Source of the DNA: Deltaproteobacteria bacterium
GTDB taxonomy: Bacteria; Myxococcota_A; UBA796; GCA-2862545
DNA: 64,000 nt
Direction: 5' to 3'
Assembly: GCA_007693595.1 (NCBI GenBank)
Contig: REDI01000039.1
Span: 124,001-188,000 of the forward strand
In this document: positions 33,924 through 56,031 of the stretch, piece by piece
How the letters are laid out: each line of letters begins with the position of its first letter
Position numbering within the stretch: position 1 is the stretch's first letter
Made by a program: the position numbers and the translations under genes
The notes under the pieces: generated by a model
What the model was told of the DNA's origin: nothing
Databases searched by the model: none
The model's input: only the letters and a program-made list of their open reading frames with translations

Positions 33924-34052
33924 TACGAACCTCCTCGCAGCCGCTCACCTTAGTCCAAGAGATCTCGCAGAGGGGATGTCGCGCCGATGGGGATTGGACG
34001 AACCGGCGCCGGGCGCCGGATTCTTGGTGTTTTTCCATGCCTAAGACAAGAA

Positions 34053-34081
34053 CGAGACCTCCGGGCTAGCCCGAGGTCTCG
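34053..34081 (-). terminator. terminator hairpin between tatP and the QM permease gene
   Basis: On the minus strand a long inverted repeat (CGAGACCT / AGGTCTCG outer arms with an inner CGGG/CCCG stem) is followed by TTCTTGTCTT. It starts 33 bases after the tatP stop and about 130 bases before the permease ATG. It should partly stop transcription, giving more binding protein than permease. Confidence 0.75.
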
Positions 34082-34114
34082 AGGCGCTATCGCGCGGTGC
34101 GGTCGTGCGCGTGG

Positions 34115-35131: not shown

Positions 35132-35187
35132 GCGAATGCTCCGTTGTTGACGAGGACTCAATCAGGCTAAAACCCGTGACGCAGGGT

Positions 35188-39244: not shown

Positions 39245-39904
39245 CTACTTCGTGCTCTTGACGGCGTCGCGCAGGATGACCAAGCCGCCGTTGGGGCCGG
39301 GTACGCCGCCGCGAACCATGATCAGGTTGCGCTCTTCGTCGATCCGCTCGACCGCGAGGTTCTGCACGGTGGTCTTTACGTTGCCCATGTGACCTGGCAT
39401 CTTCTTGCCCTTGAGGACCATGCCAGGGGTCAGGCGGGTGCCGATGGAGCCCCCATGACGGAAGAACTCGTGGGTACCGTGAGTACGGATAAACCCGGCG
39501 AAGTGGTAGCGCTTCATGACGCCCGCGAAGCCGCGGCCCTTGCTCGTGCCGGTGACGTCGACCCGCTGGCCGACCTCGAAGATGTCGCTGACCTTGAGGG
39601 TCTGCCCGCGCTCGACAGAGGAAGCCTTGTCCTTCGAGACGCGGATCTCTTTGACGGCGCGCTTGACGCTGACCCCCGCCTTGTCGAAGTGACCCTTCTC
39701 GGGCTTGTTGATTCGATGCTCTTTCTGGTCGCCAAAGCCGAGCTGCACCGCATTGTAGCCGTCGCTGCCGTCTTCGGTCTTGACCTGGAGCACGGGGCAG
39801 GGCCCCGCCTCGATGAGGGTAACGGCGACCACTTCGCCGTCGTCGCGGAAGAACTGAGTCATGCCGAGCTTGCGGCCGAGCAGTCCCATCGATTCATTTG
39901 CCAT
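39245..39904 (-). CDS. rplC: 50S ribosomal protein L3, displaced from the S10 block
   Basis: L3 is an assembly-initiator protein close to the peptidyl-transferase centre. Starting at 39904 (GAGGT 5 bases upstream) gives 219 residues: SMGLLGRKLGMTQFFRDDGE, GTSKGRGFAGVMKRYHFAG, the tip loop GGSIGTRLTPGMVLKGKKMP and GHMGNVKTTVQNL. It is complete and intact. It is monocistronic and opposite in strand to the r-protein block, whose expected rplC slot between rpsJ and rplD is only 18 bases. A longer upstream reading frame is not conserved. Confidence 0.96.
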   Translation of the reverse strand: MANESMGLLGRKLGMTQFFRDDGEVVAVTLIEAGPCPVLQVKTEDGSDGYNAVQLGFGDQKEHRINKPEKGHFDKAGVSVKRAVKEIRVSKDKASSVERGQTLKVSDIFEVGQRVDVTGTSKGRGFAGVMKRYHFAGFIRTHGTHEFFRHGGSIGTRLTPGMVLKGKKMPGHMGNVKTTVQNLAVERIDEERNLIMVRGGVPGPNGGLVILRDAVKSTK

Positions 39905-40230
39905 GTGGACCTCGCATAGGACGACCTCGTGGGACGTCGTACGGGTAGGGGTGAGGCCGGGCGACCCGAAGGGGGGACCGGCTGTGGAGAGACGCCGCGT
40001 CGTAGCGCGCCGCTGGGGGAGAAGCAAGGGCATCCGATGATGCGGTACGGCTGCGGGGCGTGGTCGCCGTCGTTCCTGTCTGCGAGTCCAGGGCCAACGC
40101 GCTGGAGGAGCAGGAGCCGCTGGATGGTGGCGTCTTGGATGGCAGGACGCAGAGTGTACCGGGGTGCGGAAGCGACCGAGGGGAGGGATCGCGGGGTCCG
40201 TCGGGCGACGGGAGCTCGCCCGTCTGAGGG
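39905..40230. other. 326-base gap upstream of rplC: no gene, weak hairpin near the 3' end
   Basis: I see no coding region in either strand. It should contain the rplC promoter and leader (minus strand), but no clear -35/-10 pair stands out. A 6-bp hairpin at 40207-40224 (GACGGG/CCCGTC) lies 6 bases after the beta-barrel gene stop on the minus strand and may end the envelope cluster transcript; it has no T tract. Confidence 0.45.
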
Positions 40231-40977
40231 CTAGAAGGTGTACTTCATGAAGCCGGTGGCGTTGAACCCGAAGTCGAAGCCGATGGCGTAGGTGAAGTCG
40301 GTGTCGATGCCGATCGAGAAGTGAGACAGCTTGGTGTAGTACTCGACCGTGGGTCCCGCGAACAAAGGAAAGTGTGGGGTGCGGTGAACATCGGGGTTAT
40401 TTCCGCCCCAGGCGGGTACCACGGTGTTGTCCCAGCTACCCTTCTCGACCAAGAGGGGCGTGAACATGACGCCAGCGCCAACCTGGAACCCAAGCCCCAA
40501 GCGGCGGGTCGGGTAGGCGGCGAATCGGTAGGACGCGAGCAAGGAGAAGGTTCGTGTGTCGCCCTGAATGTTGCGGTTGGGCGGCACGCCGTTGAGCGCC
40601 TGCACGTCGTAGGGCATGCCGTTGTGCACGCCCTGCTGGAAGGTGAACTGGTAGGACATGCTGCGGTTCGGCTCGTCGACGAAGTCGTTGCCGACCGAGA
40701 AGGCGACCAGCGAGCCCATCTGGAGCAGACCCCCGCCGAAGCGCCCGACCCAGTCCGCCACCCCACCGTTGGCCTTGAAATACCACCCGCGCTCGATCTC
40801 ACGGATGATCTCGTCGTCGGAGAGGACGGGCGAGCGCTCTTCCTTGGTCTTCTTCTTCTTCTTGTCTTTCTTGCCGGAGTCGGAGTCGAGATCCTCGATG
40901 TCGACGGCAAGGGCCGCGGTGTTGCCCAAGAGGGGCGCGGCCAAGCTGAGGGAGAGCAGGAGGCAGAAGCGCTGCAT
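40231..40977 (-). CDS. outer-membrane beta-barrel protein (GltH/NfsH or CglE-like), last gene of the envelope cluster
   Basis: The 248-residue product has a signal peptide (QRFCLLLSLSLAAPLLGNTA) and a charged linker with a lysine run (about residues 36-47). The rest shows alternating hydrophobic strands, ending in an aromatic-terminated strand (ATGFMKYTF), the usual signal for outer-membrane insertion. Position 8 of 8 in the cluster corresponds to the H barrel of Myxococcus Glt/Nfs. The assignment rests on order and architecture. Confidence 0.65.
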   Translation of the reverse strand: MQRFCLLLSLSLAAPLLGNTAALAVDIEDLDSDSGKKDKKKKKTKEERSPVLSDDEIIREIERGWYFKANGGVADWVGRFGGGLLQMGSLVAFSVGNDFVDEPNRSMSYQFTFQQGVHNGMPYDVQALNGVPPNRNIQGDTRTFSLLASYRFAAYPTRRLGLGFQVGAGVMFTPLLVEKGSWDNTVVPAWGGNNPDVHRTPHFPLFAGPTVEYYTKLSHFSIGIDTDFTYAIGFDFGFNATGFMKYTF

Positions 40978-41240
40978 CGACCATTCCTCGAGAAGAAGAA
41001 GTGAGAGGGGTGGACCGAGGTGGAGCCCGAGGTCCCGCGGGGTGTACCACGTCTAGGGTTGGCCCGAAAGCGAAAAAGGTGACAAGCTCGTCTGAGTCGT
41101 CGCGAACCGAGGATACCGCGCGTCAAGATTGTGTCGGTCAGGCACCCCGGGATGAGCTCCCGCGGGAGGGCGCCGACCAAGGGAACGGCCCCCACCAAGT
41201 CTATCGGTGAGGGCCTCGCTCGCTCGGCGACGCGGGACGA

Positions 41241-43274
41241 TCAGCCCGCGGTGAAGATGAAGGGGTAGCTGACGATGACGATGCCGCCGCCCTTGGGCTC
41301 GGGGAACTGCATGTTCATGAAGCGGCTGACCACGCAGTTCTCGACCGTGGGGGTGTTGAGCGTGGTCGACTTGGTGTTCGCTGACGAGACCGATCCATCT
41401 TTGGCGATGACGAACTTGATGACCAGCTTGCCCTGCAAGGAGGGGTTCTTGGTGAGCTCGCGCTGGTAGCAGTAGCGGATCTGGTTCATGTGGCGCTTGA
41501 TGACCGCATCGATGAGGGCGCGGTCGAGCGCTCCGAGGATGATGGGATCTCCACCGACAGCACCGATGTTGCCTTCGCCCTTCGCGCCGAAGTCACCGCC
41601 GCCGCGACCGTAGCCCGAGGCGCCGGAGCCCACGCCCTTGGTACCGAGTCCACCGAGGCCATCGGCCGAACCTCCGCCACCGAGCCCCGAGCCACGCGAG
41701 CCGAGGCCGCCTGAGCCGACCTGCGTGCCCTTGGCCCCGATGAGGCCACCGATCCCGCCCAGCATCTCGGCGTCGACGCCGCCGCCAAAGCCGTCCATCA
41801 TGCCGCCGTCGCGGAGGGCGCCAAGGACGCCCGCGTCTTCGGCGATCTGCTTGTCGAGTTGGGCCTTCTGGATCTCAACCTTGTTGCCCTTGGCCTTCTC
41901 CATCTTGGCGTCTTTCTTGCCGACCTTGCCCTCTTCGCGCTTGGCCTTGGCCCCTTCGCCCGCGTCAGGGTTGGCCTGAGGCTTCTTGTCTTGCTTCTCT
42001 TCGCGCTTTTCTTGCTTCTCGAGCAGCATGTCGATGAAGCGATCATCGAGGTCCTTGAAGCTGGTCTCGGGGGGGGAGGGCAGGAAGAGCACCAGCAGAA
42101 GGAAGAGCATCCCGATGAAGGCGAAGAGCGACAGGATCCCCAAGAAGAAGGCTTCGGCGATCAGGGTCAGGATCATCAGGGTCAGGAAGCCGGCACCGAC
42201 CTTGCGGCTCGGGTAGGTCTGCTGCGCGACGAAGATGGTCTCGTTGGCCTCGATCAACAGCTTCATGTCGTCTTCGAGGGGGATGTTCAGCCCGCCGTCG
42301 CCGGACTTCTCGGCCTTGCCTTGGGCGACCAGGTCGTCGAAGCTGAGCTTGTCATCGCCGATGAGCGCGAAGCCGCCCCAGTTCTTGGCGATCCGAGCGA
42401 CGTGTTTCCCACCCTTATTGACGAAGAGGTCGTACTCATCACCGGATGGAAGCGCCGTCTCGGGGATGTAGAAGTCGTTCTTGTACCGGGTCGAGACCTC
42501 GGACCATAGCGGAGGCGTAAAAGGCAAAATCATGGCCAGTGGGGCGGGGACCCACGCCAGCTCAATGCCGATAAAGCTCCAGCGGTAGCCGCTCTTCGAG
42601 CCGATGTTCACGGAGCGGCTATTGCTGCGGTAGTGCTTCGTGTCGAGGACGATGTTGTCCCAGACTTGGTGGACCTCGAGCACCTTGGGACGGTTCCGGT
42701 TCTCACCCGCGGCGCTGCTGGAGCTACCTCCGCGCAACACGAAGGTGAGCACGTCTTCGGTGCGGACCTCGGTCTCGTCGGCGCGGTCCTCGCTGGGCGC
42801 GGCCGGTGTCGGGGCGTTGCCGACGCCAGGATCGGTGCTCGCGACGTCGATGCTCCCTGGATCCGTAGGATCGTCAACCATCTCGCCTGCTGCCGCTGCG
42901 GCGAGCAGCTCCTGTGGCATGGTCATGACGTGGGTCGCTTCTTCGTCGTCGTCGAAGGTCGTGGGCTCGAAACGGACCACGACGCGGAGCTCGCCAAGCG
43001 TGAAGGCGTCGCCTGGGCGGACCTCGGCGTTGGTGATCTTCTCGCCGTCCTTCAAGACGCCGCCCTCGACGCCCAGGTCGAGGATGTGCACGGTGCCGTC
43101 ATCTTCGATGTTGAAGACGGCGTGGAGCTCGGCGAGGGAGGGGTCGTCGACGGCGAGGAGCGCGTCGGAGCCGCTCCCGATGGTGACGCTCTCTTCGCGA
43201 AACTCTCCAGTCTTGAGGAGGGTGTCGCCTCGGTAGACTTCGAAGCTGAGCGCTGGACGATCGTTACTGGCCAT
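41241..43274 (-). CDS. FHA domain - transmembrane - AgmX/PglI C-terminal domain protein (GltG/NfsG-like)
   Basis: The 677-residue inner-membrane protein begins with an FHA domain (about 27-98; VTIGSGSDALLAVDDPSLAE), followed by an acidic Ala/Pro linker and a second folded region (about 195-350). Two closely spaced membrane segments follow (about 362-398), then a Lys/Glu coiled region (410-475), a glycine-rich stretch (487-577) and an AgmX/PglI/TonB-type domain (about 578-675; IRYCYQRELTKNPSLQGKLV, ending GGGIVIVSYPFIF). This matches PglI/GltG and NfsG, which link the cytoplasm to the cell envelope. The FHA domain would bind a phosphothreonine partner. Confidence 0.82.
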   Translation of the reverse strand: MASNDRPALSFEVYRGDTLLKTGEFREESVTIGSGSDALLAVDDPSLAELHAVFNIEDDGTVHILDLGVEGGVLKDGEKITNAEVRPGDAFTLGELRVVVRFEPTTFDDDEEATHVMTMPQELLAAAAAGEMVDDPTDPGSIDVASTDPGVGNAPTPAAPSEDRADETEVRTEDVLTFVLRGGSSSSAAGENRNRPKVLEVHQVWDNIVLDTKHYRSNSRSVNIGSKSGYRWSFIGIELAWVPAPLAMILPFTPPLWSEVSTRYKNDFYIPETALPSGDEYDLFVNKGGKHVARIAKNWGGFALIGDDKLSFDDLVAQGKAEKSGDGGLNIPLEDDMKLLIEANETIFVAQQTYPSRKVGAGFLTLMILTLIAEAFFLGILSLFAFIGMLFLLLVLFLPSPPETSFKDLDDRFIDMLLEKQEKREEKQDKKPQANPDAGEGAKAKREEGKVGKKDAKMEKAKGNKVEIQKAQLDKQIAEDAGVLGALRDGGMMDGFGGGVDAEMLGGIGGLIGAKGTQVGSGGLGSRGSGLGGGGSADGLGGLGTKGVGSGASGYGRGGGDFGAKGEGNIGAVGGDPIILGALDRALIDAVIKRHMNQIRYCYQRELTKNPSLQGKLVIKFVIAKDGSVSSANTKSTTLNTPTVENCVVSRFMNMQFPEPKGGGIVIVSYPFIFTAG

Positions 43275-43319
43275 ATCACTGGCCTCCGATGGGAGAGGGG
43301 AGGAGAGGGGGGAGGGGCC

Positions 43320-43586
43320 TTACTTGACCTCGTTGATCGACTCACGCATCTCGGGCTTGAAGTCGGTGCGGAGGCGGATCATGGGGTTGAACTGGGCCTT
43401 TTTACGGTCGACGAGGAGGGAGCCCGACGGCTTGACCAGCTCACCGGAGACGTCGACCCCTTCGAAGTCGATCTCGGTGCGCTCCTTGTACTTGACCTGA
43501 CGATCCCCATCGTCCTGCGCGAGGGCTGAGGTAGAGACCAGGGCGCCGAGGGCGAGGGCTGCGAGGGGGAGAGAGCGGCGAAGCAT
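43320..43586 (-). CDS. small secreted protein (CglF/GltF/NfsF position)
   Basis: The 88-residue product has a signal peptide (LRRSLPLAALALGALVSTSA, cleavage near LAQ) and a short mature part (EIDFEGVDVSGELVKPSGSL, then NPMIRLRTDFKPEMRESINE). I recall this type of sequence from proteins annotated CglF/GltF in myxobacteria, but that is memory and not a search. It lies 46 bases upstream of the FHA gene, in the F slot of the cluster. Confidence 0.65.
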   Translation of the reverse strand: MLRRSLPLAALALGALVSTSALAQDDGDRQVKYKERTEIDFEGVDVSGELVKPSGSLLVDRKKAQFNPMIRLRTDFKPEMRESINEVK

Positions 43587-43952
43587 GGGACCTCCGTTCG
43601 GTCGAGACGATGTGCTGACGGTTGGGTTCAGACGAGCACACGAGCCGCGGTAGTGTGCCCTCTTGAGGGCCTTCCTACAAGGCGCGGGGGGTCATGTTCC
43701 CGTCAACCCCTATGACACGGGCTCAGAGTCCTGGTTCCCCCGAAACGTCAAGGGGGTGCAAAGGAGAACCGCGCAGCTCAGGGCTTCGGGGATGGCTCCT
43801 CGCGTGCTCAGGAGCTCTGGCAGCCGAGCGAAGGTTCGAGCCGAACCCAGGTCGAAGCTCTCGGCAGACGACGGCGGCCGCGAACCCGAAGAGGGGGCGC
43901 GGCCGCAACCGTTGGGAAGTCTGAACGGGCTGGACTTGGGACGGTTCGCACC
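43587..43952. other. 366-base gap inside the envelope cluster: terminator-like hairpin, no gene
   Basis: No coding region is visible. A hairpin (43907-43946; AACCGT/ACGGTT outer and AAGTC/GACTT inner stems) starts a few bases after the stop of the TPR lipoprotein gene on the minus strand and may reduce read-through into the F-G-H genes. I found no convincing promoter for the downstream genes, although two TTGACG boxes (minus strand, near 43748 and 43698) lack a good -10 at the right spacing. Confidence 0.45.
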
Positions 43953-45386
43953 CTACTCGGGCGCCTCTCCCCCATCCTCGGCTTCAGCGGGATCTCCGCC
44001 GACGCAGACGTCGAGCATGCCGTTCGCCTCGTCTACGAAGGTCTTGAGATCGCCAGCCATCGACGGGTCATCCATGCTCATCTTGATCTGCTCGATGTAC
44101 ATGCCCGCCATCTCGACGACGTCGGCGTCGTCGCACTTGCTCAGGCGAGCCTCGGTCTTGTCGACCTCGCTCTTGAGCTCCGCGAGCAGGCGCTTGTTGC
44201 GCTCTTCGCGCTCCTTGCGCTCCCGCTCGGCGGCTGCGAGGGCTTCTTGGCGTTTGCGCTCCTCTTCCATGGAGGCCTGGATGCGTTGCTTGCGCTCATA
44301 GACTTCGTGGCTCGGGCTGAGCTCGCCGACGTGTGCCGCGATGAAGTCATCGAGGTATTTCTCGGCCGCCTTGAAGTTGCGGGTGTACTTCTCGTGGAGG
44401 GTACTCCCGTTGAAGTAAGCCGGCTGGAACTTGGGATCAGACTTGAGGATCTCGCGGTAGATCTTGTCGGCTCCGTCGAGATCCCCCGTGCCTCGCAGCG
44501 CGACGGCGAGGCCGAGCCGGGCGTCGCGGCTGGAGCTGTCGGTCTGGTTCGCAGCTCGGAAACTGCCGAGGGCCAAGTTATAATCCCCAGAGTCGAGCGC
44601 GATGAACCCGAGGTTCATGTTGGCTTCGAAGTTCTTGGGGTCGAGCTTGACCGCCTTCTGAAAGCGCTCGATCGCGCGCTCGGTGTCCTTCTGAAGAATG
44701 TAGGTCACGCCCATGTTATTGTAGATGCCGGGCTCTCCGTCGTTGAGCTCCAGTGCCTTCTCGTTGCACAGCTGCGCCATGCCCAAGCGGCCCTGAGCGA
44801 AGTACATCGAGGAGAGGGCGCGGTAGGCCCCTGCGTTCTCGGGGTCCTGCCGAAGGATCTCGCGAGCGTGCTGCTCGGCGTCTTCGTAGCGCTCCAGGTC
44901 GGTCAGAGCTTGCATGAGGTCGTAGCGGACGTCGACCCGCTCAGGGTTGGCGTCGACCAGCTTCTGGTAGATCTCGACCGCCTCTTCGGGCTTTTTGTTG
45001 GCACGGAGGATCCGGGTCAACGAGAAGATGGCCGCCTCGTAGTTCGGGTCGCCCTCGTAGGCGCGTCGGTAGTGCTTCTCGGCCCTTTGGAGGTCGCCGA
45101 TACGCTCTGCCGTCCAGCCCGCGTTGAACGAGGTCTTCGGGTTCGCCCGCAGCTCGGCGGAGCGGCTGAAGTGATCGTAGGCTTCGGCGTAGTCAATCTC
45201 GCCGGTCTTTGGATCGGGGGTCTTGAGGAAGCGAACGCCCTGCTGGAAGAGCGCGATCGGATCGCTGGCTTGCTCTTCGGTCAGGGCTTCGACCGCCGGC
45301 CCCTTCTTGCAGCCGGTCGACAGCGCGACGGGTGCAGCGAGGAGCGCGACGAGGAGTGGCAGGCGTAGGATCTTGGTCATGGTCAT
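43953..45386 (-). CDS. TPR lipoprotein (GltE/AglT or NfsE-like)
   Basis: The 477-residue product has a lipoprotein signal peptide (MTKILRLPLLVALLAAPVAL, then lipobox STGC with Lys at +2). About ten tetratricopeptide-like units follow (for example DLQRAEKHYRRAYEGDPNYE, and IERFQKAVKLDPKNFEANMN), then a Lys/Glu/Arg coiled region (about 370-420) and a C-terminal segment with two cysteines. GAGGGG lies 6 bases before the ATG at 45386, which is 8 bases after the upstream stop. It corresponds to the E component of the Myxococcus system. Confidence 0.78.
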   Translation of the reverse strand: MTMTKILRLPLLVALLAAPVALSTGCKKGPAVEALTEEQASDPIALFQQGVRFLKTPDPKTGEIDYAEAYDHFSRSAELRANPKTSFNAGWTAERIGDLQRAEKHYRRAYEGDPNYEAAIFSLTRILRANKKPEEAVEIYQKLVDANPERVDVRYDLMQALTDLERYEDAEQHAREILRQDPENAGAYRALSSMYFAQGRLGMAQLCNEKALELNDGEPGIYNNMGVTYILQKDTERAIERFQKAVKLDPKNFEANMNLGFIALDSGDYNLALGSFRAANQTDSSSRDARLGLAVALRGTGDLDGADKIYREILKSDPKFQPAYFNGSTLHEKYTRNFKAAEKYLDDFIAAHVGELSPSHEVYERKQRIQASMEEERKRQEALAAAERERKEREERNKRLLAELKSEVDKTEARLSKCDDADVVEMAGMYIEQIKMSMDDPSMAGDLKTFVDEANGMLDVCVGGDPAEAEDGGEAPE

Positions 45387-45394
45387 CGTGCCCC

Positions 45395-48300
45395 TCACAG
45401 CTCGGACTCGAAGTTGAAGGTGCGGGTCTTGGACGAGACGTAGTTGGGCTCGAGGATGGTCTCTTCGAGGCCGGGATAGTCGTCGGGGGCCAGGTCGCCG
45501 AGCCGGCGGGTCGCGAAGGCGGTGTCTTCGTTGTAGAGCGTGAGCTCGTAGGCCTTCTCAAGCGCGGCCTGGTAGAGTTGGATGGCGGCCTGGGTGCGCG
45601 GATAGGCTCGGTCCTGCATGCCCATGCGATAGATCTCGGCTTGATCTTGGGTCAGGTAGTAAGGGATGTCGCCTTCGAGCAGCGTATCTGCCATGTTTTC
45701 TTGGGCCTTGCCCAGCGAGACCAGGGCCGCCAGAGCCCATGGACCCGAGCCGGTCTTGATGATCTCTTTGAAGCTCTCTTCGACCTTCTTGATCTCGTCC
45801 TGCTTGGCCTTGAGCTGAGCCGTCATGTGGCGGTCTTCGGTTTTCCGGCCGCCACCCTTCTTCGACGTGATCTTGAGCCCGAGATACTTCTCGAGCGCGG
45901 GTTGCGCGAGGATGTACATCATCTCGGCGACGTGCTCGGTGTGCTCTCCGGGCTCTCCGCCCTTCTTGAGGAAGTCCTCGTACTCGTCGATAGTCTTCTT
46001 GTAGAGGGCGTGGGCCTCGCGGGTCTTGCCCTGACTCTCGAGGATCTTGCCGTGGTGAAGCTTGGCGAAGGTGAGGTACGGCATGGGCGTGTCTTTGGGC
46101 GCCTTGCTGTAGAACTGCACGTACTCATTGGCGGCCTTGGCCTTGTCGCCGCGGTCTTCGTAGATCCGCGCGATGGTGATCTTGACGTCGTTGATGCGGC
46201 CATCGTCGGATCGGCTCTTGGCCGCCTCGTCGAGGAAGAGACGGTAGTTGGCGATCGCCTTGTCGTGCTCATCGCCGGCCCGGCGGAACACTGCGGCCGA
46301 GTAGATCGCGTCTAGGGCCAGATCGGTCATCTGGCTTGCCTTCTCGGCGTCGTCCTTGGCGACTTTGTCGCGCTCCTTGGGGTAGAGCGAGAACAGCTTC
46401 TCGTAGAAGAAGGCGGACTGATCGAAGGCTGCGACGTTCTCGTAGGCGAAGCCGAGCGCTTCGATGGTCTTATAGTAGTACTTGGTCTTGTCACCGAACT
46501 TCGGATCATCCACGAGGATGTGCCGAATGCGCATGGCGTCGGTGTGTCGCTTGACCTCGCTGTAGTAGACCGCCGCATTGTTCAAGGCCGTAGCGAGCAC
46601 GTCGGTCTCGGCATTGTCCTTGAACTCCTCGTAGAAGGCCACATAGGCGTCGGCAGCCTTGGACTTGTCGTTGTCGCTCTTGAGGTTCTCGGCGATGAGT
46701 TGGAAGCTCGCACGCTGGTAGATATTGTAGACGTCGTTCTTGAACTTTCTGGATCCAAGGCCCTCTTGGTCGTAGTAGAACTTGGCGTTCTTTTTGAGGT
46801 TCGCGTAGTCTTCGCGGATCGCGAAGCTGTCGAGGATCAGGTTGGCCGCTTGCTCGGCTTCGCGGGACTTGGGATCCATCTTGATGACGAGGTTGAACTG
46901 CTCGGCCGCCTCGGCGAATCGGTACTTATTGTAGAGCAGATAGCCCGACTTATAGATCGCGTTCTTGGTCTTCTGCGTGCCAGGGTAGAGCTTGGCGAAC
47001 TGGGCGCAGGCGTCGATCAGCTTCTGCTCGTTGGCGGTGAGCTCCATGGGCTGCACATCTTTGTCGACCTTACCCTTCGCGCGGGAGGTCTCGGATCCAC
47101 CGTCGGCCTTGATGAGTTCCTCGGCGGCGAAGATCGCGGACTCGGCGCAGAACCGGCTGTGCTTGCCGTTGGGGTCGAGCTGCACAACCTTCATGTACTG
47201 TTCGTAGGCCTCTGCGAAGTTCTTGAGCTTGTAGAGCAGCTCGCCAAAGGCATATCGCACGTCGTAGGTGTGCTTGTTGTCGGGGAACTCATCGAGATAG
47301 ACGCGGTAGGCTTTCTCGGCCAAGTTGTAGGCCTCAAGGCCTTCCTTGTGAGGCCCGAGCTTGCGCGCCTCGTTGTGGTACTCGACCGCCACCTGACGCA
47401 GGTTCTTCTCGATCGCGCTCTGGGCATCCTTGACCGCTTCTTGGTTCGAGGCGTTTGCCCGCGCCCAGGCCGATTTGCTGCCGTAGGTCTTCCGGAGCTT
47501 CTCGATCTCTTCGAAGGTCACTTGGCGCTTGCCCATCTTCTTGGCGGCCTTGATGATCTCGGACTGATACTCAGGGTTGTCGGGTGCCTGCGGGTTCTCG
47601 GTGATGAGGCGACGGTAGGTGTGGATGGTCTGCTCGAACTTGCCCTGTTCGAAATACATGCTCGCGAGCTGCTTGAGCATCGCGCGGATGAGGTCGTCTT
47701 TTCCGAGCTTCTTGAAGTAGTCGTAGGCCTCGTTCATCTCGCCCGCGTCGGCGAAGAACCGAACGAGGTCCCGCAGGGCTTCATCTTGAAGCTGGATCGC
47801 CTTGCCTTCCTGGCCTTGGGTCTGGGTGTAGGCGACGACCGACTTCATGGTACGGATGGCGTTGTCGTATTCGCCGACGTTGAAGTAACACCACGCGAGC
47901 TTGTAGAGCGCGAAGCTGTACTTGGGGCTGTCGCGGAAGGAGGCGGCCCGCTTGTAGGCTTGTAGCGCCTTGTAGGCGTTGTTGTCGTCGAAGTAGTACT
48001 CACCGATGTTGACGTAGGTGTCGGGGACGTAGCTGGACTCCGGGTACTGCTTGACCAGCTTGATGAACTGTTGGACAGCATCACTGCGCCGGCCGGTGTC
48101 TTGGAGGGCCATGCCCAGGTAGAAGGTGGCCTCGTCGGCACGACGGTAGCGTGGATAATTCCTTAGGATCTGCTCGTAGAGTCGGATAGAGCGCTGCTGC
48201 CAGTCCGCGGAGCCCGAAGTGTCGGGGCCCTTGTCGAACATGGCTTGATCGTCGCACCGCTCGTCTTGCTGGCAGGCCTGCCACTTCTCGTCGAAGATCT

Positions 48301-48616
48301 CGTTCTCTTCCAGGTAGAGCCAGCGGCCCTCTTGGAAGTAGAGGTCGGCCAGACGCAGCATCATCTCGGCCTTCTGATCGCCCTGCGCATCGCCCCTCGC
48401 GAGGAGGTCCTTGAGCATATCGATCGACCGGAGTCGTTTTTCACGCGCCTGTCGAGCGTATTCGGAGCGTGGGTCCTCGGAGACGTCCATGTCGCGGGCT
48501 GAGAGGCGCCGCCGATCATCGTCGGCTTGGGCGCTGTCCGTCAGCGCGGAGGTCCCAGCGGTGCCCGCGAGCAGGAGGGCGAGGGTGGCGGCGGTGGGCT
48601 TGAAGAGCCGGTTCAT
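45395..48616 (-). CDS. large periplasmic TPR protein (GltD/AgmU or NfsD-like)
   Basis: The 1073-residue product has a signal peptide (NRLFKPTAATLALLLAGTAG) and then TPR-type helical repeats over most of its length, such as QQRSIRLYEQILRNYPRYRR, LYKLAWCYFNVGEYDNAIRT and NLAEKAYRVYLDEFPDNKHT. No catalytic motif is visible. Its size and position between the C and E genes match the D component, a periplasmic scaffold in Myxococcus. The stop is 8 bases before the next gene. Confidence 0.76.
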   Translation of the reverse strand: MNRLFKPTAATLALLLAGTAGTSALTDSAQADDDRRRLSARDMDVSEDPRSEYARQAREKRLRSIDMLKDLLARGDAQGDQKAEMMLRLADLYFQEGRWLYLEENEIFDEKWQACQQDERCDDQAMFDKGPDTSGSADWQQRSIRLYEQILRNYPRYRRADEATFYLGMALQDTGRRSDAVQQFIKLVKQYPESSYVPDTYVNIGEYYFDDNNAYKALQAYKRAASFRDSPKYSFALYKLAWCYFNVGEYDNAIRTMKSVVAYTQTQGQEGKAIQLQDEALRDLVRFFADAGEMNEAYDYFKKLGKDDLIRAMLKQLASMYFEQGKFEQTIHTYRRLITENPQAPDNPEYQSEIIKAAKKMGKRQVTFEEIEKLRKTYGSKSAWARANASNQEAVKDAQSAIEKNLRQVAVEYHNEARKLGPHKEGLEAYNLAEKAYRVYLDEFPDNKHTYDVRYAFGELLYKLKNFAEAYEQYMKVVQLDPNGKHSRFCAESAIFAAEELIKADGGSETSRAKGKVDKDVQPMELTANEQKLIDACAQFAKLYPGTQKTKNAIYKSGYLLYNKYRFAEAAEQFNLVIKMDPKSREAEQAANLILDSFAIREDYANLKKNAKFYYDQEGLGSRKFKNDVYNIYQRASFQLIAENLKSDNDKSKAADAYVAFYEEFKDNAETDVLATALNNAAVYYSEVKRHTDAMRIRHILVDDPKFGDKTKYYYKTIEALGFAYENVAAFDQSAFFYEKLFSLYPKERDKVAKDDAEKASQMTDLALDAIYSAAVFRRAGDEHDKAIANYRLFLDEAAKSRSDDGRINDVKITIARIYEDRGDKAKAANEYVQFYSKAPKDTPMPYLTFAKLHHGKILESQGKTREAHALYKKTIDEYEDFLKKGGEPGEHTEHVAEMMYILAQPALEKYLGLKITSKKGGGRKTEDRHMTAQLKAKQDEIKKVEESFKEIIKTGSGPWALAALVSLGKAQENMADTLLEGDIPYYLTQDQAEIYRMGMQDRAYPRTQAAIQLYQAALEKAYELTLYNEDTAFATRRLGDLAPDDYPGLEETILEPNYVSSKTRTFNFESEL

Positions 48617-48674
48617 GGTAGAACCTCCCGAGCGAAACGCTCGTTCTCAGGCTAGCGAAGGGCAGGCAGGGTGA

Positions 48675-50537
48675 TCAGTTGCAGGCGCTCGACTCGGAGT
48701 ATTGGTAGTAGCCGAGCTCGTCGGCCCAGAACTCCCCGTTGAACGGCCAGTAGATGATCTCTTTGGAGACGGCGAAGTCGACGGTGGCGGCGTCGGTCTC
48801 GCCGAGGATCGGAGTGTCGCGAGAGGCCTTGGCCTCGAGGTCGATACGCTGCGCGTCGACGATCTCGAACCGGATGATCTGGGACTGGCTCAGCAGATCG
48901 CCGAGCTTGCGGTTCTGGTTGTCGAGCTCTTGGATGAGCACCACGCCCGCTCGCTGCTTGTAGCGCTGGCGGTCTTGCTCCATGACGCGCTTGATGTGCG
49001 CTCCGACGGAGTCACGCCACACCGACTTCTGATCGTTGATCACCTTGGCTTCCTCATCCATCATGTCGAGGTGATCGACAATGCTGGCGAGGTCGCGGTT
49101 CTGTAAAACCTTATACAAGAGCTGACGACTGAGCATGCTGTTGGCCGCACCACCCTCGAAGTATTGCTCATACGCCTTGTCTGCGAGCTTGATGCCATCG
49201 GGGGTATTGTATTGCGCCAAGAAGTCCTTGAGCTCGCCCCGCATGGGCTGGAAGCTGCGCTCAAACTGCACGAGGATCCTGTTCGCCTCTTGGTATTCGC
49301 ACAGGTAGAAGAAGGTGAGCGCCCGGAGGATGTCGCTGTCGGGCAGATGCTCGAACGAGGTGAAGTGCGGCGCGCGCGGGGTGAGCAGCAGGCCGAGGGT
49401 GTCGTTCAGGCGCGTGAGCATGAAGTTCGCCCAGGCGCGCTCGAAGAGGCTCTGCGTCCACTGCTCGCTCTGCCGGTCGACCATGGCGTAGTAGGCGTCG
49501 GCGTTGTCGAAGCGCTCAAGCTCGTAGTAGATTCGCGCGATGTTCATCAGGGAGAGCGTGCGAAGCCGAGCATGCTCGCGCGCCTCGCGGGCGTCGGACG
49601 CGGGATAGTCGCTGTCGTAGACTTCCTTGAAGGCCTTGACGGCGCTCTGGAGCTTCTCGCGCTCGTAAGAGATGACCCCTTCGAAGTATTTTGACTGCAG
49701 ATACAGGTTGGACTTGCTGCTGATCTGCTGGAAGTACTTGGCCGAACGAGAGAGGTTGCCCTTGTCGTACTCGCGCCGACCCATCAGGTAGAAGAGGTGG
49801 TTCTGCGCTTGACGGGGGAAGGCGTTGGCCGGGATCCGGTGAACGATGCGCATCAGCTCGGTCTCGTTCCCGGTATACTCGGCGATGGCCACCAATCGAG
49901 GCAGGGCGTACTTGAAGTAGGGGTCGCGGGGACCGCGCCTGACCGCTTGCATATAGTAGTACTGAGCGCCGTGATACATGCCGAGATCATCGAGGCTCTT
50001 TGCCATGTAGTAGAACAGCTTGGAGCGCTGCTCAGGGAACTCGTCGGCCTCGAGCATGTCGAAGAAGCACTTGGAGGACGTGAGGGCTTTGCCTGCGCGG
50101 TACAGCTCGATGCACTCGCGGACCAAGCGCGGGTCCGTTCCGCCGTCGTCACCCTCTTCAGGCAGGTCCGACAGGTCGTCGGGCATGCTCGGGAAGGTGC
50201 CCCCGCCGAGAGGATCTTTGTCTTCGGGCTCGGGTTCGGGCTCACGGGTCGGCGCGGGTGCCGCGACGTCGTCGGCCTTGAGCTCGCGAGCGGTCTGAAC
50301 GACGTCGCCTGGCGCACCTTGCTCGACCAGGCACTGGATCTCGTCGGGCTTGTACGTCTTTCCAGAGCTCTTCATGGTCTGGACCGTGATCGATGAAGGG
50401 ACGCCTGCGTTGAGCATGCCCATGATCTGATCGCAGTCCACCGCGAGAGCCGGGGTGGCGAGGAGCGACAGACCTCCGACGAGTCCGGCCCGGGCATAGG
50501 CGCTGATGCGCGACGTGCCGAGGAAGGGGTTGCGCAT
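48675..50537 (-). CDS. periplasmic TPR protein (GltC/NfsC-like)
   Basis: The ATG at 50537 overlaps the stop of the B barrel gene by one base (TGATG). The 620-residue product has a signal peptide (about 1-32), an N-terminal helical domain with two cysteines (DCDQIMGMLNAGVPSSITVQ...QCLVEQG), an acidic Pro/Glu linker (about 100-130), then TPR-like helices to the end, where a final GEFWADELGYYQYSESSACN segment carries a terminal cysteine. It matches the C component by order and architecture. Confidence 0.76.
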   Translation of the reverse strand: MRNPFLGTSRISAYARAGLVGGLSLLATPALAVDCDQIMGMLNAGVPSSITVQTMKSSGKTYKPDEIQCLVEQGAPGDVVQTARELKADDVAAPAPTREPEPEPEDKDPLGGGTFPSMPDDLSDLPEEGDDGGTDPRLVRECIELYRAGKALTSSKCFFDMLEADEFPEQRSKLFYYMAKSLDDLGMYHGAQYYYMQAVRRGPRDPYFKYALPRLVAIAEYTGNETELMRIVHRIPANAFPRQAQNHLFYLMGRREYDKGNLSRSAKYFQQISSKSNLYLQSKYFEGVISYEREKLQSAVKAFKEVYDSDYPASDAREAREHARLRTLSLMNIARIYYELERFDNADAYYAMVDRQSEQWTQSLFERAWANFMLTRLNDTLGLLLTPRAPHFTSFEHLPDSDILRALTFFYLCEYQEANRILVQFERSFQPMRGELKDFLAQYNTPDGIKLADKAYEQYFEGGAANSMLSRQLLYKVLQNRDLASIVDHLDMMDEEAKVINDQKSVWRDSVGAHIKRVMEQDRQRYKQRAGVVLIQELDNQNRKLGDLLSQSQIIRFEIVDAQRIDLEAKASRDTPILGETDAATVDFAVSKEIIYWPFNGEFWADELGYYQYSESSACN

Positions 50538-51436
50538 CACTTGCCTCCGGTACTGAAGAAGAACGTAGCAGACGCTTGAATGATGAAGTTGTTCTTCATC
50601 TCGAGTGAGGTCCCGTTCAGCGTCTCGATGAAGGACAGCGAGCGACCCTCGATGCGGGTGGCGAACCGATCGCTGAAGGCGACGCGGAAGCCACCGCCCA
50701 GGGTCGTGGTGGGGTGAACCTGGTTGGCGGTGAGGACGCACGGGGTGCCCTCGATGCCGGCGCACTGGATCGCCTCGAGGTCATCTCGGGTGCCGGTGAT
50801 CCCCATGCCGAAGAGCCCGTAGATGTCGAAGATGATGATCTGGCCACCGAGGATGGCGATCTTACCGTAGATGGGTGCGAATTGCGCGGTGGCGTTCACC
50901 GCCCAGATGATCTTGGAGATGTCAGGAGAGACTTTGTTGTTCTCGATGATCTGGCGGGTGATGGGCTTCCAGTCGCCCTCGCCGAAGTCTGGCGAGAAGG
51001 ATCCCGAGAGCTCGGCCGAGAGGACCTCGGTGAAGTGGTAGCCGACGTTGCCGCCGACGATGTATCGGTTGATGAAGGGGTCGTTGCTGACGAAGCCGAG
51101 GTGCCCGCCCGCTTCGACCTTGCCGATCTTGAGGAAGTTCTTCTTTTGGAGGACCTTGATGGGGGGACGGTCCTCGCGCTCCTCGAGGAGCTCTTCGTCG
51201 TCGTCGCGCTGTCCGATCACATCGGAGTCGCCACGTTCGAGAGAGCGCCTCTCTTCGGCTGTGCTGCGCTCGCGGTCCCCGAGACCGAGGATGTCGTCGA
51301 GATCGTCGTCCTCTTGGGCGAGCCCGTCGTCTGAGCCCCCGCTCACCCCCAGCGCGGGGATGGGCTCCGGCGCCGCGTGGGCGAGCGTGGCCGTGAAGGC
51401 GATGACGGCCGCCAGTGTCCAGACCTTAGTAGACAT
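50537..51436 (-). CDS. outer-membrane beta-barrel (GltB/NfsB-like)
   Basis: Starting at 51436 gives 299 residues: signal peptide (STKVWTLAAVIAFTATLAHA), an acidic Asp/Glu/Arg region (about 45-95), then a barrel domain (FLKIGKVEAGGHLGFVSNDP, FINRYIVGGNVGYHFTEVLS) ending IIQASATFFFSTGGK. Its barrel is similar in layout to the upstream gene (both have an NPF/DPF...GGxxGYHF segment), so the pair looks like an old duplication. The start overlaps the end of the A gene by 11 bases. Confidence 0.75.
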   Translation of the reverse strand: MSTKVWTLAAVIAFTATLAHAAPEPIPALGVSGGSDDGLAQEDDDLDDILGLGDRERSTAEERRSLERGDSDVIGQRDDDEELLEEREDRPPIKVLQKKNFLKIGKVEAGGHLGFVSNDPFINRYIVGGNVGYHFTEVLSAELSGSFSPDFGEGDWKPITRQIIENNKVSPDISKIIWAVNATAQFAPIYGKIAILGGQIIIFDIYGLFGMGITGTRDDLEAIQCAGIEGTPCVLTANQVHPTTTLGGGFRVAFSDRFATRIEGRSLSFIETLNGTSLEMKNNFIIQASATFFFSTGGK

Positions 51437-52244
51437 CGGCGCGCTCCTGCATCTTGGGGAAGAAGATAGCGACGCCACCCGAGGTGACGAAGTTGTTGTA
51501 GAGCCGGTTGCCCGCAGCCGGGATGTTCGGGTCGTACTGCGGTTGCTCGTCGATGAAGAAGTTCATGCGTGCGTCGATCTTGAGGGCGACGGACTGGGTG
51601 AGGAAGAAGTTGAAGCCCATGCCCAGGGTTGGCCCGAAGACCGCTTCGTTCCCCGCGGGTGCGAGCCCGATGGGGCTGCCTGGGTCGTTCGGGGTGTCTA
51701 GGCGCGCGAAGTAGTTGGTCTTGCTGCTCACGTGCAGCCCCGCCACGAAGTACAGGTCGAAGTTCAGGATAGTCTCGCCAAGGAGATTGATCTTGCCGTA
51801 GAGCGGCGCCCACACGGCGTTGGCCGCGAAGCTGATCGTGACCTTGTCCAGGGGCTGCTGGAACCCGGCCTCGTTGGCGACCGCGGCGATCCGGAGCAAG
51901 GTGCGGGTCAGACCCTTCAGGTCATTCTGACCCAGATCGGGGCTGTAGCTGACCATCCCTTGGAGCGCGAAGGACTCGGAAAAGTGGTAGCCACCCGCCA
52001 CACCGCCGACAAAGCGCTGTGCGAAGGGGTTGTTCGGCACATAGCCGAACATGGGCGACAGCTCGAAGCGCTTGGTCTTGGTGAAGAAGCGGTTGTCGAT
52101 CGAAGGGCGGGGTGGAGGTCCCTCGCGGTGCAGTTCGATCGCTTCGCCACCTGGGCCGGTCGGTCCGGCCGCGAGGGCAGCGGACGAGCCGCTGAGGGCC
52201 ATTGCGGCGGCCGCGGTGGTGAGGAGAGGCTTGAGGTAGGCCAT
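51426..52244 (-). CDS. outer-membrane beta-barrel (GltA/NfsA-like), first gene of the cluster
   Basis: The ATG at 52244, with GGGAGA 7 bases upstream, gives 272 residues; the ATG at 52259 lacks a ribosome-binding site. A signal peptide (about 1-26) precedes a barrel domain with FELSPMFGYVPNNPFAQRFV and GGVAGGYHFSESFALQGMVS. The last barrel strand is NNFVTSGGVAIFFPKMQ. It is the promoter-proximal gene of the eight-gene cluster. Confidence 0.75.
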   Translation of the reverse strand: MAYLKPLLTTAAAAMALSGSSAALAAGPTGPGGEAIELHREGPPPRPSIDNRFFTKTKRFELSPMFGYVPNNPFAQRFVGGVAGGYHFSESFALQGMVSYSPDLGQNDLKGLTRTLLRIAAVANEAGFQQPLDKVTISFAANAVWAPLYGKINLLGETILNFDLYFVAGLHVSSKTNYFARLDTPNDPGSPIGLAPAGNEAVFGPTLGMGFNFFLTQSVALKIDARMNFFIDEQPQYDPNIPAAGNRLYNNFVTSGGVAIFFPKMQERADVY

Positions 52245-52528: not shown

Positions 52529-53413
52529 TCAGCGTGTCCGCCAGGGGACCTCGACCCACGAGATCCCCCCCCGGCGGTCCTTGAGCACCACCCACCATCG
52601 CCCCTCGATGTCGGAGGCTGCAGGAGCCAGCCAGCGACTGTACAAGAAGGGGTGGATCGTCGTGGCGCGTCGGACCTGCCCGCCGCTCGCGTACCACTCG
52701 GCGAAGGGTTGTTCTTCGCGCTCCTCCCACTCCCCGTCGGCGTTGAGATAGTCGTAGGTCTCGATAGCGTCCTCGGCGAGCTCCACGTCCAACTCATAGA
52801 TCTCGCCGGGATCGACCAGCACCGTCTGCCCGGCCTCGATGGGGTGGGAGTCCACTAGAAAACGGACGATGCCTGGGTTCTGATTGGTCTCTCGCGTGGT
52901 GATCATGGCCCGCTTGAAGCCGACACGGAGCTGGTTGAAGTCGAGGCTTTCATCGTCCTCGAGTCCCTCGCGAGGCAGGGCGAGGGCGGTGACCGTGTAG
53001 GGACGGCCACGCAGCGCACTGCGTTCGTCGAGCGAGTCCAGGTAGTCTTCGGGGGCGGTGACCCGCGGGGGGAGGCCAGGCTCGATCCCTATCACCCCCG
53101 CGGCGTCGAGGTCTTCGGGGGTTGGGTCCCCGCCGAGGACTGAAGGATCGGGTGCGCAGCCGAAGCTCGTGGTCTCTTCGTCGGAGCAGCCGAACCAGAT
53201 CACCGTGCCGAGCTCGTCGTCGGGGTCGACGAAGAGCGCGCGCACCTCGGCGGTCTCGCCAGGGAGGAGGTCCGGGGGTTCGACCTGGATCGCCAGGAGG
53301 CGAGGGCGGTCCGCGAGCCAGCTCGGATCGAGGTCCCGCGGGCGGGGGTAGCGCTCGCTCTGGATCACGCAGGAGGTGAGGAGGAGCGCTGAGCTGACGA
53401 AGCGGAGGATCAT
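52529..53413 (-). CDS. lipoprotein of unknown function paired with TonB-dependent receptor
   Basis: The 294-residue product has a short lipoprotein signal peptide (ILRFVSSALLLTSC). The mature part is acidic and tryptophan-rich with two further cysteines (WFGCSDEETTSFGCAPDP) and beta-type sequence, including an ETAEVRALFVDPDDELG stretch that looks like an immunoglobulin-like or surface fold. I do not recognise a family. Its start overlaps the receptor stop by 4 bases, suggesting it works with the receptor as a surface-exposed or periplasmic partner. Confidence 0.75.
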   Translation of the reverse strand: MILRFVSSALLLTSCVIQSERYPRPRDLDPSWLADRPRLLAIQVEPPDLLPGETAEVRALFVDPDDELGTVIWFGCSDEETTSFGCAPDPSVLGGDPTPEDLDAAGVIGIEPGLPPRVTAPEDYLDSLDERSALRGRPYTVTALALPREGLEDDESLDFNQLRVGFKRAMITTRETNQNPGIVRFLVDSHPIEAGQTVLVDPGEIYELDVELAEDAIETYDYLNADGEWEEREEQPFAEWYASGGQVRRATTIHPFLYSRWLAPAASDIEGRWWVVLKDRRGGISWVEVPWRTR

Positions 53414-56031
53414 CGGCGCACCTTGGCCTCGAAGCCGATGTTCGGGATGAAGGGAAGCCCTCGCACATAGGCGAAGTCAGAGTAGTCGTAGTTGTAGACG
53501 GTGAACTCGGGGTTTACCCCGCGGATTGTGTTGAGAAGATCGACGTATAAGGACAGCTCCCAGCTTCGGAAGGTGAACCTACGGTCGACGCGGAAGCTGG
53601 TCTGGAAGAAGAAGGGTAGCCGGCTGTCGTTGCGCGGGCCGACGCGGAAGCCGCTGTAGGAGCCTCCGTCGACATCGAAGACACCGGCGTTGAGCACGCT
53701 CTGGGGGTTCCCTGAGACGAGCTGGATCTGCATCGAGACCCCGATATGATAGGGCAGGTCGTAGCCACCTTGTGCGGAGAGGATGTGCGTCTGGTCGAAG
53801 TCGAAGGGCACCCACTCGGCGTCGGGGTTGGCTTTGCGCTCCGAGCGCGAGAGGGTGTAGCTCAGCCAGCCGAAGAACCGACCCACCGGCTGATGTCGAA
53901 CGATCAGCTCGGCCCCGTAGGCCCTCCCGAAGCCGATATTCATAAAGGGGGAGCTCCCGAACCCGGTGAAGTTCGGGTCGGTGTCGATCAGGTTCCACAT
54001 GTCGCGCCAGAACAGGTCGAGCTCCCACTGCACGGCCGGGCTGATGGTGTGCTCCAGGCCGATGGAGCTGTTCCAGGCACGCTCGAAGGCGAGATCCGGG
54101 GTGACGCCCAAGCCGATGGACTGCTGGGGCTGGGGGGGCTGGTGGTACAGGCCGCTGCTTCCCTTCAGGGCGAACCCATCGGTCAGCTCGAACCATCCTG
54201 AGAAGCGTGGGTCGATGGCCTGTCTGCGGTAGGGGGCCGCACCTTGGGCGACGGACCCGCCGTAGGTGATGGTGGCCGAGTTGACGCGAACGCTCGGCGT
54301 GAGTCGCAAGCGGTCCCGGTCCTGCAGGGGGCTGAGGTCCATGCGCAGCCAGGCGTCGGGATACCAAGCGGTGCCTTGGCCGCCGAACGCTACGGGGTCG
54401 CGCTCGCTGAGGGGGTTGTCGAGATCGGCGATGCGGAAGGGGGACACGAAGTCGAAAGACCAGGCTCCCCCGAGGAAGTCAAAGCCTGGGGTGATCGTTA
54501 TGGCGGGGTGGGGGCGGTATTCCAGTTCGGACCGGAAGTGGACGTTGGTGGTGCCGCCGCTGAAGGTCAAAGCCTGGCCGACCCCGAAGATGGTTCGGTC
54601 GACCCCGAAGCTTGGGGTGACGCGGAGCGTCAGGTCGTCTCCGAGCTTCTCGGTCCACCGGATCACCGCTCGGTGGGAGAGGTACCGGGTGAGCAGATCG
54701 CCTTGGGTGTCTCGATCGCTGCCTTGGGCGGTGTCGGAGGGCGTCGAGATCGAGAGAAGGTCCTCGAAGCCATAGACGAAGGCAGAGAGCGTGCGATGCT
54801 CCGGGGTCGGGGCGACGACCTTGAACTGGTAGTCCCAGTACCGAGGCTTGATGGCAAAGTCGCTTCCGTCGAGAAAGAGCGGGAGGAAGGCATCGATGTA
54901 GCTTCGGCGGAAGCCCGCGGCCACGCCGATCTTGCGGTCTTCGTCGCCGCCGACGGGGATCGAGGTCTGGGCATAGACCTGGGCGTCGAGCACGTCGGCG
55001 CCTCCGGAGATGATGGTCTCGTCGAAGCGATCCTTGGTCGTGACATCGATCACGCCCGCCATCTTTCGACCGAACTTGCCACTGTAGCCGCCGGGCAGGT
55101 AGTCGACCGACTCGACGAACTCGGGTTGGATGACGCTCGTGGTGCCGGTGAGGTGGTAGATGAGGGGAACCTCGATGCCGTCGACGTAGACCCCCGAGTC
55201 CTGCGGGTTTGCGCCTCGGATGATCAGCAGCCCGGTCCCGAAGGGGGAGCGGGCAGCCCCAGGCAGGGTCTGGATGACCTTGACCGGATCGCCGAAGGTC
55301 CCTGGAATGCGGCGGATCTCTTCGTTGGAGAGGGTGCGGCGGGTGACCTCGGGGGTCTTGGGGCGCTCGCCGAAGACCGTGATCTCGTTGGCCGAGAGGT
55401 TGTCTTCGGTGACCCAGAGACGGATCTCGGTGACCTCATCGGGCTCGATGGTGAGCGTCTCGGTCGCAGGGCGGTGGCCTGGCCCTGAGACACGGATCCG
55501 GTACTCTCCCGGGGGGAGGCCACGGACCGAGAACGTGCCGTCGCCTTCGGTCACGAGCTCCGTGCGTTCGATCTCTCGACCATCCGAAGGCTCGATCTCA
55601 AGGAAGGCCCCGCCGACGGGGGCTCGGGTGCCGTTCTCGCGCACGCGGCCTTCGAGGGTGATGGGGACCTCGATCTCTTGCTCCGGATCTTCCGTGAGTT
55701 CAAAGGAGTACCCGAAGTCGAAGGTCGAAGGGACCGGACCTTCACGAGTCTCGGCAGGGGAGAACCGCATCCTCAAGACAGCGTCCTTGGCCTCCCAGGC
55801 AAAGCCGTACGGGTCGTCCTCGAGAGGCTGGGCATCGGTCACGCGGCCTTGCTCGTCGAGGGAGACCCGAAGCGTGACCTTGAAGGAGGTGATGTCCTCA
55901 TCGGCAGCGGCCGAGGGGAAATCGGCATCGACCCACTCCAGCACCGCAGGCATGACGACGATCGCTTCGGGGGGCTCGCTCGGTGCAGCCAGGGACAAGG
56001 ACGCCCACACCAAGAGCAGGACCAGGCTCAT
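53410..56031 (-). CDS. TonB-dependent receptor with N-terminal TonB-C-like and carboxypeptidase-regulatory domains
   Basis: The 873-residue outer-membrane protein starts with a signal peptide (about 1-16). A TonB-C/AgmX-like domain follows (about 20-115; LEWVDADFPSAAADEDITSF, VTLRVSLDEQGRVTDAQPLE), then a CarboxypepD_reg-like domain (about 125-210; TLEGRVRENGTRAPVGGAFL), a plug (RRIPGTFGDPVKVIQTLPGA, then LIIRGANPQDSGVYVDGIEV) and a barrel ending FIPNIGFEAKVRR. No classical TonB box is obvious. Its ligand is unknown. It is the first gene of a pair with the overlapping lipoprotein. Confidence 0.88.
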   Translation of the reverse strand: MSLVLLLVWASLSLAAPSEPPEAIVVMPAVLEWVDADFPSAAADEDITSFKVTLRVSLDEQGRVTDAQPLEDDPYGFAWEAKDAVLRMRFSPAETREGPVPSTFDFGYSFELTEDPEQEIEVPITLEGRVRENGTRAPVGGAFLEIEPSDGREIERTELVTEGDGTFSVRGLPPGEYRIRVSGPGHRPATETLTIEPDEVTEIRLWVTEDNLSANEITVFGERPKTPEVTRRTLSNEEIRRIPGTFGDPVKVIQTLPGAARSPFGTGLLIIRGANPQDSGVYVDGIEVPLIYHLTGTTSVIQPEFVESVDYLPGGYSGKFGRKMAGVIDVTTKDRFDETIISGGADVLDAQVYAQTSIPVGGDEDRKIGVAAGFRRSYIDAFLPLFLDGSDFAIKPRYWDYQFKVVAPTPEHRTLSAFVYGFEDLLSISTPSDTAQGSDRDTQGDLLTRYLSHRAVIRWTEKLGDDLTLRVTPSFGVDRTIFGVGQALTFSGGTTNVHFRSELEYRPHPAITITPGFDFLGGAWSFDFVSPFRIADLDNPLSERDPVAFGGQGTAWYPDAWLRMDLSPLQDRDRLRLTPSVRVNSATITYGGSVAQGAAPYRRQAIDPRFSGWFELTDGFALKGSSGLYHQPPQPQQSIGLGVTPDLAFERAWNSSIGLEHTISPAVQWELDLFWRDMWNLIDTDPNFTGFGSSPFMNIGFGRAYGAELIVRHQPVGRFFGWLSYTLSRSERKANPDAEWVPFDFDQTHILSAQGGYDLPYHIGVSMQIQLVSGNPQSVLNAGVFDVDGGSYSGFRVGPRNDSRLPFFFQTSFRVDRRFTFRSWELSLYVDLLNTIRGVNPEFTVYNYDYSDFAYVRGLPFIPNIGFEAKVRR

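Follow-up and report, generated by a model that had tools for sequence, protein, structure and literature searches.

What drives an envelope machine whose genes come without a motor? The question is raised by eight genes, here called A to H, in a 64-kb stretch of contig REDI01000039.1 (assembly GCA_007693595.1, positions 124,001 to 188,000) from an uncultured deltaproteobacterium whose genome assembly comprises 97 contigs and 4.9 Mb; the whole stretch is referred to as the window. The products resemble those of the Nfs and Glt complexes of Myxococcus xanthus. On balance, we favour the reading that together they act as a passive Glt/Nfs-type transducer that spans the envelope and is driven in trans by an AglRQS-type motor encoded on contig 24 of the same genome.

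All eight open reading frames (ORFs) were confirmed on the minus strand between 40231 and 52244, in the order of the Myxococcus nfsA-H/gltA-H products (Table 1). The composition and A-to-H order that an earlier note had read from the letters were borne out by ORF positions and by NCBIfam and Pfam matches, with NCBIfam family matches for seven of the eight genes (A, B, C, E, F, G and H). That note had also expected G, D and E to match Glt/Nfs profiles, which G and E do; the NCBIfam and Pfam searches with D returned only tetratricopeptide repeat (TPR) and YbgF-type models and no Glt-specific one, and D was assigned by position, length and TPR content. Best models of the YbgF/TPR type say little for a TPR protein. 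A Tol/Bam-type system was rejected, as C, E, F, G and H match Glt/Cgl models, and a chance origin of the eight-gene arrangement is not credible.

B is a paralogue of A, for which an alternative start exists at 52259. The two genes overlap, B and C overlap by one base, and the start of E adjoins the end of D; the remaining gaps measure 58 (C-D), 366 (E-F), 45 (F-G) and 263 bp (G-H). A lipobox, LSTGC, was spotted by eye in E. In G, a Pfam FHA domain (32 bits, above its cut-off) is followed by a transmembrane segment and a tail that matches NF033768 AgmX/PglI (112 bits, E 1e-32, cut-off 40 exceeded). AlphaFold2 models built from alignments of class members have eight strands for both A (mean pLDDT 80) and H (mean pLDDT 81). 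A sequence search of the PDB with G returned FHA domains only, plus one weak match elsewhere, and the same search with C gave no match. Scans for promoters and terminators gave no excess over shuffled sequence (0 vs 1.5 expected and 8 vs 9.2 expected, respectively).

Table 1. Genes of the operon, motor genes of the host genome and adjoining genes, with locations in the window unless a contig or locus is named
Feature	Location	Strand	Length (aa)	Evidence and remarks
A, outer-membrane beta-barrel, GltA/NfsA position	51426..52244	-	272	TIGR04565 OMP_myx_plus 92.3 bits, E 3.1e-26, above cut-off 60
B, outer-membrane beta-barrel, GltB/NfsB position	50537..51436	-	299	TIGR04565 OMP_myx_plus 86.9 bits, E 1.4e-24, above cut-off 60
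C, periplasmic TPR protein, GltC/NfsC relative	48675..50537	-	620 (from ATG)	NF033756 GltC 251 bits, E 2.6e-74, below cut-off 450
D, large TPR protein, GltD/NfsD position	45395..48616	-	1073	TPR_6 and YbgF-type models, position, length, D tree
E, TPR lipoprotein, GltE/NfsE relative	43953..45386	-	477	NF033758 GltE 114.6 bits, E 5.4e-33, below cut-off 225
F, small secreted protein, CglF/GltF relative	43320..43586	-	88	NF033764 CglF 54.5 bits, E 9.2e-15, below cut-off 90
G, FHA - transmembrane - AgmX/TonB-like tail, GltG/NfsG relative	41241..43274	-	677	NF033760 GltG 299 bits, E 7.1e-89, below cut-off 650
H, outer-membrane beta-barrel, CglE/GltH relative	40231..40977	-	248	NF033755 CglE 99.3 bits, E 2.2e-28, above cut-off 70
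Second Glt-like cluster C-D-E-F-R-Q-S-G-barrel with sole AglR-type motor of genome	L016:10524 to L017:7067 (contig 24, about 155524-169067)
First ExbD-like subunit without membrane Asp	L017:2023-2619			Equivalents in L232-L250, L256, L257, L261-L266
ExbB-ExbD-ExbD set adjoining TonB-like gene	L020 (contig 89; C89)			PF03544 for TonB-like gene
ExbB and ExbD-like pair	L022 (contig 61)
TolQ beside TolR	L019
Ribosomal protein L3 gene, not part of machine	39245..40033	-		PF00297 57.4 bits; ORF start over-extended
Neighbour just upstream of A	52529..53413	-	294	No Pfam match; homologues upstream in L112, L116, L122 (3 of 60 fetched loci)

The matches support a transducer that is Glt/Nfs-type in the broad sense, in which C, E, F and G are divergent relatives rather than assigned Glt orthologues. 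The earlier note's equation of the locus with the Nfs cluster and the Glt core therefore held at the level of the family and no further. We write 'Glt/Nfs-type', but not 'Glt' or 'Nfs', because the equivalog cut-offs for GltC, GltE, CglF and GltG were missed, while A, B, H and the AgmX tail exceed theirs. The GltG cut-off was reached by none of 282 genomes sampled from the phylum and by none of 144 genomes of another class (that of genome G231), although matches below it were present in 274 and 144 of them, respectively; for this reason it looks specific to a narrow group, presumably the Myxococcaceae. No recognisable Myxococcus-type GltG that could anchor a Glt-versus-Nfs tree was found among these 282 and 144 genomes, and one contig scan gave 11 loci, all of them metagenome-assembled genome records.

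The lengths of the window proteins parallel both M. xanthus sets, which for A to H are 294/442/512/1202/499/94/682/200 aa in Nfs (PMC2875238 Table 3) and 256/275/673/1191/471/89/640/209 aa in Glt (PMC3169522 Table 1). The layout is that of Nfs (nfsA-H, MXAN_3371-3378): eight co-directional genes of similar length in one A-to-H cluster, with large E-F and G-H gaps and with no motor and no I, J or K at either locus. The two differ in the C-D gap, which is 214 bp in Nfs, and in setting, the window operon being followed by rplC in a host from another, uncultured class. With Glt (gltA-K) the operon shares homologues of A to H, a GltG-type FHA-TM-AgmX protein, and scores above the CglE and OMP_myx_plus cut-offs. 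Unlike Glt, it forms one cluster instead of two, falls short of four Glt cut-offs and lacks a local GltI; a search of the host genome gave no MglA-type GTPase. The C, D, E and G families are also common to the Group B 'core complex' described by Luciano et al. 2011 (GltC, D, E and G together with AglRQS), but the window operon has no motor genes and has A, B and H in addition, and its G and D fall in groups separate from the core type. That combination is present instead on contig 24, where the cluster corresponds to the Group B complex of PMC3169522, plus F-like and barrel genes; clusters of this type are called core clusters below. The kind of machine is already known, since Luciano et al. 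2011 (PMC3169522) and Wartel et al. 2013 already report many different configurations of these machineries in deltaproteobacteria. A literature search of titles and abstract openings showed no paper describing this operon in this class.

A homologue of G was found in all 58 genomes searched as relatives, own genome included. We fetched 60 stretches around GltG matches, 36 from the order or class of the window and 24 from elsewhere in the phylum (61 loci with the window; L and G numbers denote loci and genomes). Their annotation used profiles that were built up from the genes of the window. Of the 28 class loci, window counted, whose upstream sequence reached 7.5 kb or more, 26 had the full set C, D, E and F upstream of G; the exceptions were L120, in which C and E were not found, and L126, in which G stands alone, as it also does in L129 with less upstream sequence. 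The full set from A to F was upstream in 17 of 37 class loci, and in many of the others the stretch or contig appears to end first. By script, H followed G in 29 of 36 class loci; L122 and L139 also show it, uncounted by the script, and it was not found in L126, L129, L130, L140 and L142. The ribosomal protein L3 gene was downstream in 28 of the 35 class loci having at least 3 kb of downstream sequence. Loci from other classes had C-D-E-F in 19 of the 23 with enough sequence, and neither H nor the L3 gene in any of 24. These loci (L148-L171) mostly run C-D-E-F-G and, in those read, continue with a small TPR protein and a giant one (>2,400 residues), which may be a GltI counterpart; A, B and H were not found in the stretch.

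Trees of G and D, like the tree of motor proteins below, came from quick searches and contain long branches. The G tree held 85 proteins, among them 15 of the 29 core-type rows (alternate rows and that of contig 24), and the D tree 64, with filtered core D rows reduced in the same way (13 kept, contig 24 included). In the G tree a branch with support of 100 set apart all 46 class rows, the second in-cluster paralogue included; the 15 core-type rows were likewise on one side of a branch, and 23 of 24 other-class rows were together, with L148 beside the class. The D tree gave the same three groups, with 32 of 32 class rows on one side of a branch. Judged from these two trees, which agree on the class grouping, the operon has been inherited within its class. 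In L113, L114, L127, L132, L134, L135, L137, L140 and L142, G is accompanied by a second, shorter paralogue with its own branch in the G tree. Solitary GltG-like genes, with no C to F or H found around them, were observed in L126, L129, L152, L157, L161 and L171. The record of L062 is titled Bifidobacterium breve and has a GltG-like gene 48% identical to that of the window; the bin is probably mislabelled.

The absence of a motor and of GltI and GltJ, together with the possibility of a motor elsewhere, had been raised in the same note. No MotA/ExbB or ExbD ORF was found in the whole 64 kb, nor in any of the 61 loci (seven own-genome motor queries, E 1e-3), and the genome search located a complete AglR-ExbD-ExbD set on contig 24. 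None of GltI, GltJ or GltK is encoded at the locus, and no genome-wide search for GltI or GltK was made; the genome search did, however, find a GltJ-like protein with a zinc ribbon and an AgmX tail on contig 89 (L021:9590-11251; GltJ model 38.9 of 450 bits). No GYF domain was detected in this protein. The host genome has four MotA/ExbB proteins, and the only one of AglR type lies with two ExbD-like partners inside the contig-24 Glt-like cluster. A tree built from 45 R-type proteins put the AglR-type rows (29 core, 8 stand-alone) together with SH-aLRT 93, and TolQ and both ExbB types apart from them.

Among the 58 genomes, an AglR-type match at E <=1e-38 was present in 53. We fetched 40 stretches, 35 around AglR-type genes and 5 around C89-type ExbB; 28 of the 35 show a core cluster, whole or cut by a contig end. 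Eight stand-alone R-Q-S operons, a layout like that of M. xanthus aglRQS, were found among the 40 loci, in G003, G004, G009, G016, G017, G049 and G054. They carry no glt genes and have no common neighbours except a repeat-bearing protein in a few, and one shares its stretch with a core cluster (L258). The core-cluster C gene had a strong match (E <=1.4e-28) in 54 of the 58 genomes and none in G008, G017, G029 and G042; in G029 a core cluster was nonetheless seen at the edge of a contig (L237).

Among the motors of this genome, the one on contig 24 is the best candidate to drive the window complex. According to PMC3858216, one AglRQS motor in M. xanthus serves both Glt and Nfs, with AglR binding GltG and NfsG. 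From the anatomy of the window proteins and the M. xanthus work, we infer that G couples to the AglR-type motor and pulls through C to F. G would be an inner-membrane protein whose FHA domain faces the cell interior and whose AgmX tail extends into the periplasm; C, D, E and F would bridge that compartment, and A, B and H would be outer-membrane barrels. GltA and GltB of M. xanthus are outer-membrane barrels that bind periplasmic GltC (PMC4488436). The contig-24 AglR-like subunit would contact G and transmit proton power in trans, and the pull of G through the periplasmic proteins would move A, B and H with attached surface material. The most likely cargo is an outer-membrane-anchored surface polysaccharide or adhesin that would be moved or held along the cell surface.

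Several observations weigh against this coupling. The contig-24 cluster has a G of its own, and contact of its motor with the window G is putative. Motors are selective, since a second AglR homologue of M. xanthus, MXAN_3003, did not bind GltG or NfsG (PMC3858216). No AglR-type match at E <=1e-38 was found in G001, G024, G040, G042 and G044, the first of which is a sister species, its assembly broken into 1330 contigs and with the core-cluster C gene present. The support that the coupling draws from G008 and G017, which are of one genus and have a window-type G and an AglR-type gene (in G017 within a stand-alone operon) with no strong core-cluster C match, is only suggestive because both genomes are incomplete (77 and 80%). 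The C89-type ExbB is as widespread as the AglR type (54 of 58 genomes at E <=1e-38). Finally, the first ExbD-like subunit of the contig-24 motor has Asn in place of the membrane Asp. Replacement is general in core-cluster motors: in all 28 read, this column of the first ExbD-like subunit is occupied by another residue, Asn in 19 and Ser in 9. The second subunit keeps Asp in 36 of 36 motors read, and the stand-alone R-Q-S motors have Asp in both (8 of 8). In M. xanthus an Asp-to-Asn change in AglQ, whose counterpart here could be either of the two subunits, paralysed the machine, with loss of proton conductance, motility and sporulation (PMC3858216). It is possible, if doubtful, that the drive of the transducer in this class is shared with, or has passed to, an asymmetric motor of three subunits. 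If true, this would be a heterodimeric axle with a single proton-carrying site, still driving or only gating two different envelope machines.

The same transducer could be served by another motor of the genome, either the C89 TonB-like/ExbB/ExbD/ExbD set or TolQR, which we regard as unlikely. The breadth of the C89-type ExbB would suit such a partner, particularly as it extends to G001 (68% identity), a genome that yielded no AglR-type gene, and both C89 ExbD-like subunits carry Asp. The C89 set, however, looks self-contained because it has its own TonB-like partner and an AgmX tail on one ExbD, and its ExbB grouped with TolQ in the R tree, not with the AglR type. It is quite improbable, in our estimate, that the operon encodes a static trans-envelope scaffold that needs no motor and serves in surface display, envelope bracing or polymer export. 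The lack of a motor gene at every locus would fit a scaffold, as would the conserved position beside a housekeeping ribosomal gene, which makes constitutive expression possible. Yet G retains an FHA domain and an AgmX/TonB-like tail, which are features of force-coupled transducers, and an AglR-type motor coexists with it in 53 of the 58 genomes. The polymer-export role suggested in the earlier note has no parallel in the Agl-Glt/Nfs system of M. xanthus, whose transport step comes after export; agl mutants still export polymer (PMC3858216). Neither a static role nor one in export is our preferred reading.

It is very improbable that the operon encodes a true gliding machine like that of M. xanthus A-motility. 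The scores of H, A and B above the CglE and OMP_myx_plus cut-offs would be in keeping with one, and Luciano et al. 2011 speculated that AglRQS with GltA-G could suffice, as in Bdellovibrio (PMC3169522). Against it stand the missed GltG, GltE, GltC and CglF cut-offs, the lack of a GltI-like gene at the locus, and the results for MglA/MglB polarity control: the host genome gave no match to the Arf-family GTPase model PF00025, by a search that was positive in 12 of 14 control genomes, and one weak roadblock match (PF03259, 30.2 bits) with no GTPase recognised beside it. We take PF00025 to cover MglA. With no MglA-type GTPase and only the one weak roadblock protein found, the genome is unlikely to support regulated gliding as known from M. 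xanthus.

Around the operon, the L3 gene has no further ribosomal genes beside it in this region; CoA-transferase and IMP dehydrogenase genes lie downstream instead. A TonB-dependent-receptor-like protein at 53410-56031 combines a plug domain with a carboxypeptidase-like one and matches TonB_C weakly near its N terminus. At 29976-36075 there is a TRAP transporter set, in which a single ORF of 1315 residues contains both the DctQ and the DctM region and a TAtT protein is also encoded. Elsewhere in the genome, contig 69 (L018:11470-13685) has a further GltC-like TPR gene next to one for a barrel akin to A and B, the two making up a partial outer-membrane module.

To our knowledge, Nfs/Glt machines have been worked out experimentally mainly in one organism, M. 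xanthus. Here a single A-H operon is conserved across an uncultured class, has no local GltI and belongs to a genome in which no MglA-type GTPase was found. These features suggest that compact A-H machines are an old and general means of surface transport and not a myxobacterial specialty. The transducer is cleanly separated from the motor: in some relatives a three-gene motor stands by itself, and in others the only one lies inside a second machine. Because relatives differ in this way, the question of one motor serving two transducers is open to comparative testing across them.

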